Shown: positions 7,136 to 23,601 of the stretch, piece after piece | Position numbering within the stretch: the first letter of the stretch is position 1 | Layout of the letters: each line of letters begins with the position of its first letter | NCBI RefSeq assembly: GCF_030845995.1 | Contig: NZ_CP132719.1 | Span: 1,860,001 to 1,924,000, forward strand | DNA length: 64,000 nt | Origin: Geothrix sp. 21YS21S-4 | GTDB lineage: Bacteria > Acidobacteriota > Holophagae > Holophagales > Holophagaceae | Direction: 5' to 3' | Translations under genes and position numbers: made by a program | The notes under the pieces: generated by a model | The model's input: the letters and a program-made list of their open reading frames with translations, nothing else | Told to the model about the DNA's origin: nothing | Databases searched by the model: none

Positions 7136-8068
7136 CTAGAGCTCCAGTCGGTCCAGGCGATCGGGCCGGTCCCGCCAGCCCTCGTCCACCTTCACGAACA
7201 GCTCCAGGCGGACGGGGCGATCCAGCACCTTCTTCAGCTCCCGCTGGGCGCTCTGGCGGATGTCCTTGATCATCTCCCCGCCGGAACCCAGCAGGATCTT
7301 GCGGTGGCCGTCGCGATCCACCAGGATCCGCGCGGCGATGAACACCCCCGTGGAATCCAGATCCTCGGGAAAGTTCTCCTGGCCCGTTTCGATCCAGCGC
7401 TCGATCAGGACGGCCACGCCGTGGGGGACTTCCTCCCGGGTCTTCCTCAGCACCTTCTCGCGGATGAACTCTGCGGCCAGGGAGCGCTCGGTCTGGTCCG
7501 TGAAGGCCTCTTCGCCGTAGGGCCAGCCCGGCTGGGCGGCATCCCGCTCCAGGAGCGCCCACAGCGGATCCAGGTTGACGCCCGTCTTGGCGCCCACGGG
7601 AACGATCTCCTGGAACGGCAGGAGGTCCTTGTAGAGGGCCACCTTCTCGAGGAGCCGTCCCTTGGAGAGGAGGTCGATCTTGTTCAGAAGCAGGTAGACC
7701 GGCCGCTCCAGCCGGCGCAGGCGCTTGGCCAGCGCGCGCTCGCCCGTGCCCAGGTGGCCATCCGCGTCCACCACCCACAGGAGGAGGTCCGCCTCTTCGA
7801 GGGCCTGCTCGACGTGGGCCATCATCCGCTCGTTGAGGGCGTGCTTCGGTAGGTGGACGCCCGGCGTGTCCAGGAAGGCCAACTGCACGTCGCCGCGGTC
7901 CACGACGCCGCGCACCCGTGTGCGGGTGGTCTGGGGGATCTGGCTGGTGGCCGCCAGCTTCTGGCCCAGAAGGGCGTTCAGCAGGGTGGATTTGCCGGCA
8001 TTGGGAAGGCCGACGATGGCGATCGTCGCGTGGCGTCGATTCTGGTCCGAGGCGGGTTGATCACCCAC
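7136..8068 (-). CDS. era: GTPase Era
   Basis: 310 residues, normal length. G1 GLPNAGKS (20-27), G2 TTR, G3 DTPG, G4 NKID and a G5-like GAKTG are all present, followed by a C-terminal KH domain (GGEMIKDI near residue 270). Era binds 16S rRNA and assists 30S assembly. The start is GTG at 8068, which overlaps the last 8 bp of lpxA, so translation is probably coupled. Confidence 0.95.
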   Translation of the reverse strand: MGDQPASDQNRRHATIAIVGLPNAGKSTLLNALLGQKLAATSQIPQTTRTRVRGVVDRGDVQLAFLDTPGVHLPKHALNERMMAHVEQALEEADLLLWVVDADGHLGTGERALAKRLRRLERPVYLLLNKIDLLSKGRLLEKVALYKDLLPFQEIVPVGAKTGVNLDPLWALLERDAAQPGWPYGEEAFTDQTERSLAAEFIREKVLRKTREEVPHGVAVLIERWIETGQENFPEDLDSTGVFIAARILVDRDGHRKILLGSGGEMIKDIRQSAQRELKKVLDRPVRLELFVKVDEGWRDRPDRLDRLEL

Positions 8069-20090: not shown

Positions 20091-20193
20091 TCTCACCCCA
20101 CGGGGAGCGCGCCCCCGGTAGCGCCTCAACCGGGCCCTCATCCGGATCGGCTTCCCACCTTCTTCCACCACGATCTCCATCCAGGAGTCCACC

Positions 20194-20517
20194 GTGTCCA
20201 CCCAAGCTTTCGATTCCGCCCGTGACCACCGCATCACCCGCGAAGAAGCGTCCGAACTCGTCAAGGCCTTCCAGAGCAAGGCCAAGACCGACGAGCACCG
20301 CGCCTCCGCCTTCAACCGCAGCGCCTTCGAACAGCTCCTCGCCCAGCCCAACGCCGCCGGCATCCGCATCTACCGCGCCGCGCACAAGGACGGGTCTCCC
20401 ACGATGGTGATGGTGGCGGTGGATCAGGCTGGGCAGGACCTCGTGGGTGGAGAGGCGATTTTCATTCAGAACGGCACTGATTGCCCGCCCTTCTGTGCGG
20501 CCAAGAACTGGATCTAG
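20194..20517 (+). CDS. Small cytoplasmic protein of unknown function
   Basis: 107 residues from a GTG at 20194 preceded by AGGAG. No signal peptide or membrane segment. The N-terminal half is charged and helical; the C-terminal half looks beta-rich (GIRIYRAAH, TMVMVAVDQ) and ends with NGTDCPPFCAAKNWI, holding a CPPFC cysteine pair. No family recognised. It lies just before the low-GC patch and has normal high GC itself. Confidence 0.65.
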   Translation: MSTQAFDSARDHRITREEASELVKAFQSKAKTDEHRASAFNRSAFEQLLAQPNAAGIRIYRAAHKDGSPTMVMVAVDQAGQDLVGGEAIFIQNGTDCPPFCAAKNWI

Positions 20518-20528
20518 GTTTTGAGCAT

Positions 20529-21194
20529 ATGGGGATGAGCCATTCCCAAATCCTGCGTTGGGGTTGGGGCATCCAAATGGTTTCCCCCCTCATTCCCGTC
20601 CTGGCTGCCACGATGCATTGGCAGTCGGGACGGTATGTGTCATTTTCCTGGATGCGGCGTTTGACGGCTTTCGTCGTCTTTCAGCTCGTCGTCAACTGGA
20701 CCATGCTCGGCATGGCCATTAATTTAAAACCAAATTATTGGGTGGCGGACCTAGTTCATCTCCCCGAGGCTTTCCTTCCGCTATGGGTTCTTGCAGGGCT
20801 CGCTTTGAGATTCCCGATGAAGGTTCCGTTGACGCTCGGCGGAGCAGCCATTGTTCTGAGTACCGCTTGGGATGCAAGCCATGTCGGATTGAAAGCTAAG
20901 TGGCCTCTGGCAGCGATCGTTTCATGCTTCGCGCTCTTGATGCTATGTGTCGGCAGTTTCATAGCCCTTCTTCTCAAGGAAGAGACGCCGCGTGACAATC
21001 ATCCGGCTTATTGGCTTTTAGGAACGTGGGCATTGGACTATGGAATCATGTTGATGTTCTATCCCATGCAGACGTTTTTCCTCCAACACCTCTCTCGGGA
21101 ATGGATTCTTGTCCCGTGGATGCTTAGATTCACAATCGGTCTTCTTCTCAACATCACCCTTGCCAAGACGTTCCTGTGCCGGAAAACCAGTTAG
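20529..21194 (+). CDS. Seven-helix integral membrane protein, candidate sensor partner of the overlapping histidine kinase
   Basis: 221 residues with seven hydrophobic helices and hardly any soluble part. No family recognised. Its last 19 bp overlap the next gene, a histidine kinase that has only one helix and no sensor domain, so this protein may be the sensing half of a split two-gene receptor. Base composition is clearly different: one line sampled (20701-20760) is 45% GC against about two-thirds in the flanks, which suggests transfer or relaxed selection. The start is uncertain; ATG at 20529 and 20535 are both possible. Confidence 0.65.
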   Translation: MGMSHSQILRWGWGIQMVSPLIPVLAATMHWQSGRYVSFSWMRRLTAFVVFQLVVNWTMLGMAINLKPNYWVADLVHLPEAFLPLWVLAGLALRFPMKVPLTLGGAAIVLSTAWDASHVGLKAKWPLAAIVSCFALLMLCVGSFIALLLKEETPRDNHPAYWLLGTWALDYGIMLMFYPMQTFFLQHLSREWILVPWMLRFTIGLLLNITLAKTFLCRKTS

Positions 21195-22015
21195 TCCTCA
21201 GCTACATCTTTGGGGTCTTGGCCTTATTAGCCCTAGGTGGCCTTGCGATCGTCGCTGTTTTTCACGCCAAGAATCGCATCATCCGTGAATCACAGAAGGC
21301 TCTGGAAGCGGAACAGCGGTTGCGCCGAGCGCAGGAAGCCTTCACGGACAACGCCCATCACGAGTTGCGGACGCCGGTACAGATTCTGGCCGGGAACTTG
21401 ATGATGCTGAGCGATCTGGATCCGACGCCCGATCAGGCTTCGATTCTGGGGCAGGCGCGTCGGACCACGGCGCAGCTCGGGCATCTGGTTCAGGGGTTGC
21501 TGGATCTGTCGAGCCTGGGCCATGGCACCCTCACCTTCCAGCCAGGGTTGACCGACCTGAACGCCCATCTCTCGGGATTGCGCGGGCGCTGCGATGCGAA
21601 CGCACAAACGAAGGGCCTGCGCTTCCATGCCGACCTGGTTCCTCTGCCGCGCCCGGTGATCTGCGATCCCGCCCGACTGTGCCAGGCCCTGGAAGCCCTG
21701 CTGGAAAACGCGCTGGGTTTCACCACCGAAGGAGCCGTGACCTTCCGCATGGCGGCGCGGCCGGAAGGCCGGGCCTGGCACCTCCGCTTCGAGATCGAGG
21801 ATCAGGGACCGGGCTTGCCCCCGGATTGGGAGCGGCTGCTCCACCCCTTCGAGCAGGAGGAGCGCGGCCTTCGTCGCCGTCGCGGCGGATTGGGCATCGG
21901 CTTGCCGCTGGCGACCGGGATCATCGAACTGCTGGGTGGTCGGATGGGATTCCAGCCACTGGCGCTCGGCACCCTGGCCTGGGTGGAGATTCAACTCGAA
22001 GAGGGCGAGTTCTAG
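21176..22015 (+). CDS. Orphan sensor histidine kinase with a single N-terminal helix
   Basis: 279 residues from a GTG at 21176. One transmembrane helix (about 8-30) and a short linker lead straight into HisKA (HHELRTP, phospho-His at about 62) and a HATPase domain with an N box ([10 protein letters not shown]), EDQGPGLP and [10 protein letters not shown]. There is no HAMP, PAS or receiver domain, and no response regulator adjoins. The upstream seven-helix gene overlaps it and probably supplies sensing. Its stop codon and that of the convergent chemoreceptor share a CTAG (22012-22015). Confidence 0.85.
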
Positions 22016-23601
22016 AGCTTGAAGCTCCCCGCCAGGCTCCTCAGTCCTTCCGCGACCTGAGCCAGGTCCTCGGAGGTCCGCGCGATCTCCTTCACGGTAG
22101 CGGCGAGTTCGTGGGTGGCGGTGGCGTTCTGGGCCAGGCTCTGGCTGGTCTGATCCATCATCCGCGTCACCTCGGCGCTGGTGCCGGCCTGGCCCTGCGC
22201 GAAGGTCCCGATCTGCGAGACGCGGCTGGCCACTTCCTGGATGCGCTCCCGGATGGCCTGGAGGCTCTGCATGGTGCCCTGGACGCTGGTGACACCGCCG
22301 GCGACCGCTTCCTGGGCCCGCTGGATCAGCTCCTCGATTTCCTTGGCGGAGGTGCGGCTGCGCTCGGCCAGCTTGCGGACCTCCTCCGCGACCACCGCGA
22401 AGCCCTTGCCCATGGAGCCGGCCTTGGCGGCCTCGATGGCGGCGTTGAGGCTGAGCAGGTTCGTCTGGCGGGCGATCTCCTGGATCACGCGCACGGCCTG
22501 GACGATCTGGGCGGTGGCGCCCTGGATCTCGCCCATCCCATGCACGGCGGCCTCGCCGGCTTCGGCGCTGCGGACGGTCTCCGCCACCGCGGCGGCGCCT
22601 TCCCGGCCGCCGGCTTCGCTGTGGCTGGCCACCAGGCCGGATTCTTCGGACAGTTCCGCCATGGCCCGGGCCACGCGCTCGCCGGCCAGTTTCAACTCCT
22701 CGCTGACGTGGGCGATCTCATCCACCGCGCGGGTCATCTCGTCGGAACTGGCGGCCAGTTCCGTGCTGCCGGAGGCCACGCGGCTGGCGAAGCCCGAAAT
22801 CTCGACCACGCGGCTCCTCAACCCGGCGTTGTAGGCGTTGAAGGCCTTGGCGGCCTCGCCGATCTCGTCCGAAGCATCGATCCGGATCTCCCGGGTGAGG
22901 TCGCTGTTGTGCAGGCCGTCCACCAGCTCATGCAGCGGCCGGGACATCCGCCGCGCCAGCTTCCGCACGGCGAAGAACAGGATCGCCGACAGGACCAGCA
23001 GCCCGCCAAGGATGGACCACGTATAGAGCCGGACCTGCGCCTGCAGGTCGTCGATGTAGACGCCCGTGCCGATGTTCCAGCCCCAGGGCTCGAAGAGTTT
23101 CACGTAGTTCAGCTTGGGGAACGCGCCGTCCACGCCGGGCTTGCCGAACCACAGCTGCATGTAGCCGCCGCCGGGCTCTCGGCCCAGCTTCTGCAACTCC
23201 ACGTAGATCCGCGTTCCCTGCTTGTCCGTGAAGTCGTTGACCAGCTTGCCTTCCATCTCGGGACGGATGGGGACGGTGACGATCCGGGGTTCCTGGTTGA
23301 AGACGTAGAAGTAGTTGCCGGCCCCGTACCGGATGGCCTTGATCTGGGCCACGGCCCGACGCTGGGCCTCCTCGCGAGGGATGGCGCCGGAGGCCGCCTC
23401 GGCCTCGTGGGCCGCCAGGATCCCCACGGCGGTCTCCGTCAGGCTGCGGATCTCGGTCTTGCGGGCATCCAGAAAGCCCCGCTCGACGGCGGGCACCAGC
23501 AGCAGCCACGACATGAGGAAGACGATCAACAGCGGACCGAGCCCCACCAGCAGGATCTTCCCCGCCAGCGACTGCGGCTTCATCCGATCCACGAACGACA
23601 T
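22012..23601 (-). CDS. Methyl-accepting chemotaxis protein with single-Cache periplasmic sensor
   Basis: 529 residues. Helix about 15-38; periplasmic single Cache domain about 45-190 ([15 protein letters not shown] and [13 protein letters not shown]); second helix about 193-213; HAMP about 215-265; then the signalling domain with the hairpin-tip motif [19 protein letters not shown] near 385. It should sense a small molecule (family ligands include short carboxylates) and control CheA. No other che gene is nearby. It lacks a C-terminal CheR-tether pentapeptide. Confidence 0.92.

Follow-up and report, generated by a model that had tools for sequence, protein, structure and literature searches.

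A candidate split receptor in Geothrix: a three-gene unit encoding a small protein, a seven-helix membrane protein and a histidine kinase

The genome of Geothrix sp. 21YS21S-4, which is closed and 3.08 Mb in size, includes a three-gene unit that on balance probably constitutes a split receptor whose sensor cassette is exchangeable. The unit lies in the 64,000-nucleotide stretch analyzed here (the window) and consists of a small gene, a gene coding for a seven-helix membrane protein (7TM) and a histidine kinase gene, in this order, with gaps of 17 and −19 nt (Table 1). A first-pass annotation had proposed a split receptor of two genes. The pairing of 7TM and kinase genes is indeed conserved; the gene count was short by one, as the 107-aa gene, with its end 17 nt upstream of the 7TM gene, had been missed, and contact and signaling between the products are matters that we infer.

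Organization of the unit and characteristics of its products

Table 1. Features of the three-gene unit (positions in the window)
Feature	Position	Strand	Characteristics
AGGAG preceding the small gene	20183-20187		Read by eye
Small protein	20194..20517	+	107 aa, GTG start; without recognized family; residues 1-83 form a folded body, followed by CPPFC and a type-specific tail
C-terminal CPPxC motif and tail of the small protein	20482..20514	+	CPPxC (20482-20496); tail AAKNWI (20497-20514)
Seven-helix membrane protein	20535..21194	+	219 aa; type A sensor; low GC3
Overlap of 7TM end and kinase start	21176..21194	+	19 nt
Histidine kinase	21176..22015	+	279 aa; a single membrane helix, then HisKA and HATPase_c; without sensor domain
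Kinase membrane helix	21200..21274	+	Residues 9-33; tracks 7TM type rather than the kinase body
Conserved kinase linker	21275..21349	+	Residues 34-58; likely 3' joint of the cassette
Kinase body	21350..22012	+	DHp, with His62 assigned from the HELRTP motif, and CA; follows the species markers

The 7TM and kinase genes overlap by the number of nucleotides first annotated, and by 25 nt in 16 other genomes of the genus. For the 7TM gene, 20535 is a likelier start than 20529, as its closest homologues start at residue 3 of the longer version. In several genomes the small gene is preceded by a conserved promoter-like element, TTGTG and TCTGAT with a conserved spacer of 17-18 bases between them (for example, G006:C3:310227-310258, locus L174), which was found once per genome in seven of the eight genomes searched and is absent from the window genome (G000). 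No known structured RNA was detected upstream of the unit at the gathering score; only weak matches were obtained.

The kinase is a complete enzyme, with HisKA (45.6 bits, cut-off 26.9) and HATPase_c (51.6 bits, cut-off 26.4) both above their cut-offs and a HATPase_c_2 match below threshold. As had been noted earlier, a domain search found neither a sensor domain nor HAMP, no response regulator gene is adjacent (the nearest of 82 Response_reg matches in the genome is >23 kb away), and visual inspection of the sequence suggests a single membrane helix.

The AlphaFold2 model of the 7TM protein consists of seven long helices forming a seven-helix bundle (mean pLDDT 87.4, pTM 0.83). Its K/R counts favor an N-out, C-in topology with the exception of an acidic fifth loop. 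Foldseek comparison with the PDB produced GPCRs and rhodopsins as the best matches (best E 0.024, probability 1.00, none below E 0.001), and the VIA alignment had a Z of 12.0 and an rmsd of 4.5 over 203 aligned residues, the noise level for helical bundles being about 13. Given these weak values, the modeled fold is receptor-like in outline only. None of 17 members matched Pfam 7TMR-DISM, 7TMR-HD, MHYT or bacterial opsin at E 0.1, and the retinal-binding Lys in helix 7 by which a microbial rhodopsin would be recognized is missing, as none of the columns that are invariant in the 17-row alignment is a Lys; the Lys near the end of helix 7 of the window protein is Arg in G007 and others. Enzymes and known receptor families were also considered as candidates and discarded, as no convincing match was found in Pfam (window protein and 17 members), NCBIfam, PHROGs or PADLOC, and none of the aligned sequences could be assigned to a family of enzymes. 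The single match among PDB sequences, to a repeat protein (E 0.02), was taken as chance. Decay of the gene is ruled out by dN/dS values of 0.09-0.24 in six of six pairs.

Distribution, genomic location and base composition

Of 60 relatives, 17 carry the 7TM gene, all of them among the 37 genomes of the genus, and a kinase ortholog (E < 1e-40) was present in the same 17 and contiguous in every one, so that the pair for which the first-pass annotation had suggested a search does recur elsewhere. The small protein was detected in 13 of 41 genomes, all among those 17 holders. A profile search of 396 genomes of the phylum located the small protein and the 7TM protein in 19 genomes each; the two sets are identical, belong to three genera of one family, and include no relatives outside Holophagaceae. 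A pattern search of genome contigs, which used Geothrix-like patterns, produced 17 loci, all from Holophagaceae. Among the units read, no 7TM gene without a kinase was encountered, the five further ones (G199, G307, G331, G249 and G339) all having an adjoining one. Scans of viral contigs, which detect close relatives only, revealed no relatives of the 7TM or small proteins.

In total, 22 complete units were collected from 22 genomes, all contiguous; a 23rd, in G339, has the 7TM gene cut to its last part. In this second unit of G339 (L071 9892-11949) the small genes are fused and inverted while the kinase is intact. In Geothrix limicola (L072 8489-9643) the small gene is present three times, with two copies joined in a single frame, and the tails have diverged.

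The Geothrix unit forms an island flanked by the genes for PepQ and DPP4. In 18 of 20 unit-bearing loci compared, it is preceded by PepQ and followed by DPP4, an MCP gene being present in between in some of them, and the exceptions are the other genera, G331 and G339. In 11 of 16 unit-less loci around PepQ, the PepQ and DPP4 genes are 50-244 bases apart; the remaining ones have an MCP gene next to PepQ (one), an MFS gene (two), a contig end (one) or a second PepQ elsewhere (one). The chemoreceptor gene beside the kinase (window 22012-23601, minus strand) is present or absent between the unit and DPP4 across Geothrix genomes. On the other side, one or two further copies of the last ~22 PepQ codons lie downstream of the gene (at 7166-7231 and 7323-7388 of L078, reverse complement, and likewise in G009, G018 and G002), and between the copies there is a conserved hairpin-bearing element of ~90 bases that looks like a mobile palindromic element or a repeated gene-end insertion.

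The lower GC content of the 7TM gene described at first is borne out, with values of 0.50-0.54 in 300-base windows within the gene and 0.62-0.73 in the flanks. To allow for amino acid composition, the expected GC3 of each protein was computed under the codon use of the neighboring genes in 21 genomes (G010, which lacks flanking sequence, was excluded). The window 7TM gene has a GC3 of 0.61 against an expected 0.93 (z −18.3), the small gene a z of −2.4 and the kinase gene a z of −7.5. Across genomes, 7TM GC3 was below expectation in 21 of 21 (z −0.5 to −54.5), by which an amino acid composition effect is rejected; the kinase was mostly near expectation and the small gene was low in a few. The extreme was Geothrix rubra (G001), with a 7TM GC3 of 0.36 against 0.97 expected (z −54.5). 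There GC3 stays below 0.6 along the whole 7TM gene, reaches 0.65 in the first 20 kinase codons and is 1.00 thereafter, and this profile, like the GC windows, agrees with the rise within the kinase gene that had been noticed. As the z of the 7TM gene is between 0 and −1.5 in G007, G015, G033 and G002, strong foreignness is not general, and as the whole kinase gene is low in GC3 in the window, the 3' boundary of the cassette is not sharp there. The impression that only the sensor part looks foreign holds in the sense that the divergent stretch extends from the last residues of the small gene through the 7TM gene to the kinase membrane helix.

Two sensor types and exchange of the cassette

The 7TM sequences can be assigned to two types, A (8 units) and B (14 units), which are split in the 7TM tree with a support of 100/100. 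In all 22 units, the type of the 7TM protein is matched by the kinase helix and by the C-terminal residues of the small protein. A penultimate Trp is found in the small-protein tail of all 8 type A and none of the 14 type B units, and the kinase-helix motif of type B occurs in every one of the 14 type B units and in none of the 8 of type A, as scored with regular expressions that were written after the alignment had been seen; one of these, GLA, which also matches three type B helices at a different position, was not used as evidence.

Among the 22 units, mean pairwise identity amounts to 0.38 for the 7TM protein; within the kinase it is 0.50 (helix), 0.76 (linker), 0.61 (DHp) and 0.62-0.63 (CA). 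Distances between 7TM proteins correlate with those between kinase helices (0.83) far more than with those of DHp (0.20) or CA (0.20-0.21), the kinase helix shows a correlation of 0.09-0.10 with its own CA domain, and the small-protein tail one of 0.80 with the 7TM protein and 0.13 with CA. When species distance was partialled out in 18 genomes, the correlation of the 7TM protein with the kinase helix was 0.79 (reached by 0 of 1000 permutations) and that with CA was 0.16 (119 of 1000). In the same number of genomes DHp and CA correlated with PepQ at 0.79 and 0.76 and the 7TM protein at 0.31; thus the kinase body follows the species. Within type B the co-variation with the 7TM protein is weaker but significant (tail 0.57, kinase helix 0.54). 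Within type A (8 units) the correlation of tail and 7TM protein is 0.34, a value reached by 126 of 2000 permutations, and that of 7TM and DHp, 0.51, is near that of 7TM and kinase helix, 0.56.

These patterns, taken from sequence comparison, indicate that sensors have been swapped between kinase bodies. The kinase-body tree requires five changes of type, at least three of which are forced by starred branches, and a single clade of type A is rejected (AU p 5e-65, a value to be read with the fact that the types were named after the sequences had been viewed and are not a pre-named group). The products of G015 and G026 share 23% identity in the 7TM protein and 20% in the kinase helix, with 84% in the linker and 81% in CA, and those of G018 and G010 share 76% and 80% in the 7TM protein and kinase helix, with 48% in DHp and 52% in CA.

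A tract in Geothrix sp. SG200 (G006) and G. paludis (G026) is, on its sequence, one recent exchange. The two genomes have 10 mismatches in 1492 bases (0.7%) from the end of the region downstream of PepQ, through the small and 7TM genes, to the middle of the kinase gene, whereas the flanks differ by ~5% (about 70/1400 before the tract and 134/2500 after it, counted by hand). The dS values are 0.026 for the small gene and 0.023 for the 7TM gene versus 0.156 for PepQ and 0.173 for DPP4. A clear drop of dS in both genes together was not seen in the five other pairs compared, this pair being the single case.

Co-variation of tail, 7TM protein and kinase helix can come from physical linkage in one recombining tract, with no need for contact. 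The 7TM protein could then be an unrelated membrane protein of the same operon and the co-variation hitchhiking, which would be helped by the tail and kinase helix directly flanking the 7TM gene and by a low cross-type identity that would push breakpoints into the conserved flanks. We regard this as improbable. The penultimate Trp is kept in every type A unit despite 7TM identities to the window protein of only 32-55% in the five type A proteins compared, and both the identical presence in 19 of 396 genomes and the lack of a sensor domain in the kinase weigh against linkage alone. Since the kinase has no other input domain and its helix is evolutionarily tied to the 7TM protein, the simplest reading is that the 7TM protein is a sensor acting on this helix, and since the tail belongs to the same specificity unit the small protein most likely interacts with the 7TM protein as its partner or ligand.

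In the split receptor favored here, the seven-helix protein would serve as the sensor and would contact the kinase's single helix within the membrane, and its state would be transmitted by the linker coiled coil to DHp and CA, which would phosphorylate a regulator encoded elsewhere. The small protein would be the cognate partner or ligand, its CPPxC tail engaging the 7TM protein. Tail, 7TM protein and kinase helix would form one specificity cassette that is swapped by homologous recombination onto species-tracking kinase bodies, with the conserved small-gene body on one side and the kinase linker and DHp on the other as recombination arms.

The small protein and comparison with known systems

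The small protein had no match in Pfam or NCBIfam (25 copies searched against each) or in the PDB, and only chance-level matches in plasmids. Its C97, P98, P99 and C101 are invariant in 25 aligned rows. Small proteins with a similar C-terminal motif presumably exist in Bacteroidota. Across the 22 units variability is greatest in the tail (mean identity 0.22), the body having values of 0.65 for residues 1-50 and 0.80 for 51-83.

A possibility that we take seriously, while giving it less weight than the split receptor as formulated above, is that the 7TM protein and the kinase cooperate and the small protein is a cytosolic regulator or a metal- or redox-binding partner (CPPxC) on the inner face, its tail co-varying by contact or linkage. 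The invariant CPPxC, the absence of a signal peptide by eye, and the inner 7TM loops L3 and L5, which are more variable than the outer loops L2, L4 and L6, would all suit such a location. The high variability of the tail is harder to accommodate, and the AlphaFold2 model of the small protein is poor (pLDDT 63) and lends the idea no structural support.

The opposite location is implied by a pherotype (quorum-sensing) locus, in which the tail would be released outside and sensed by a 7TM protein of the same type, as with ComX-ComP or AgrD-AgrC. In its layout, the split receptor favored here resembles the pherotype loci comQXP and agr, its components being of unrecognized families. The reports on comQXPA of Bacillus describe a hypervariable small gene and 5' sensor region and a conserved kinase body (PMC4008528, PMC6334282). 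The Geothrix unit has a corresponding hypervariable stretch that takes in the tail of the small protein, the 7TM protein and the kinase helix, followed by a conserved body, which recalls the comQ-comX-5' comP layout given there (PMC6334282, PMC4008528). The likeness also includes a small product, a multi-helix membrane sensor and a kinase encoded by overlapping genes, and a Trp near the end of ComX precursors, as in type A tails and unlike type B tails. The agreement of tail classes with sensor types in all 22 units and the multiplication of the small gene in G. limicola and G339 would also fit. There are several differences from comQXPA: sensor and kinase are on two genes; the kinase is of the HisKA type while ComP is of the HisKA_3 type (PF07730); the variation is between species rather than between strains, and in a Gram-negative phylum; and the unit has no ComQ-type isoprenyl transferase and no adjacent ComA response regulator, its neighbors being PepQ and MCP or DPP4. 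Without ComQ and ComA the unit does not qualify as a comQXPA locus.

The agr locus of Staphylococcus has specificity groups determined by a variable stretch over the ligand and the membrane part of the kinase. The Geothrix unit, with the small-protein tail as candidate ligand, shares these traits but has no AgrB-like protease and no AgrA, and its sensor and kinase are separate proteins. Pfam and NCBIfam searches with the 7TM and small proteins gave no match to the AgrB protease or the AgrD precursor. A pherotype function for the unit is in our estimation unlikely. It includes no exporter, protease or modifying enzyme, no signal peptide is apparent and the body of the small protein (1-83) is itself conserved at 65-80%, and the loop variability described above is contrary to what is predicted for a polymorphic ligand sensed outside. 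This loop pattern and the missing export signal lean to a site inside the cell.

The proposed receptor has other parallels. Sensory rhodopsin and Htr of haloarchaea are a seven-helix sensor and a separate transducer with membrane helices, encoded by neighboring genes and coupled by helix contact. The Geothrix unit likewise pairs a putative seven-helix sensor with a separate membrane-helix partner encoded by a neighboring gene; in it, the 7TM protein has no conserved Lys and the partner is a histidine kinase, not a methyl-accepting transducer. BceS, a kinase devoid of a sensor domain, relies on another membrane protein, BceAB. The Geothrix kinase would depend on a membrane partner in a similar manner, the difference being that this partner is a seven-helix protein of an unrecognized family, obligately linked and exchanged as a cassette. 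Among intramembrane-sensing kinases, SaeS and ScrA are also described with accessory membrane proteins (PMC12239555).

A literature search on quorum sensing with Geothrix returned incidental papers only. Geothrix is a bacterium of soil and sediment. A broader and rather doubtful extension would make the unit an Acidobacteriota pherotype-like communication locus built from unrecognized families, in which the small-protein tail is the type-specific ligand, the separate 7TM protein the receptor and the kinase is driven via its single helix, so that species could change their "language" by a one-event swap of tail, receptor and kinase helix. If the split receptor proposed here is correct, the unit would represent a two-gene seven-helix receptor kinase for which evolution has provided a series of sensor swaps, so that the residues coupling sensor and kinase could be deduced from these and tested by chimeras, and it would suggest that Acidobacteriota, too, have the exchangeable signal-receptor cassettes known from Firmicutes.
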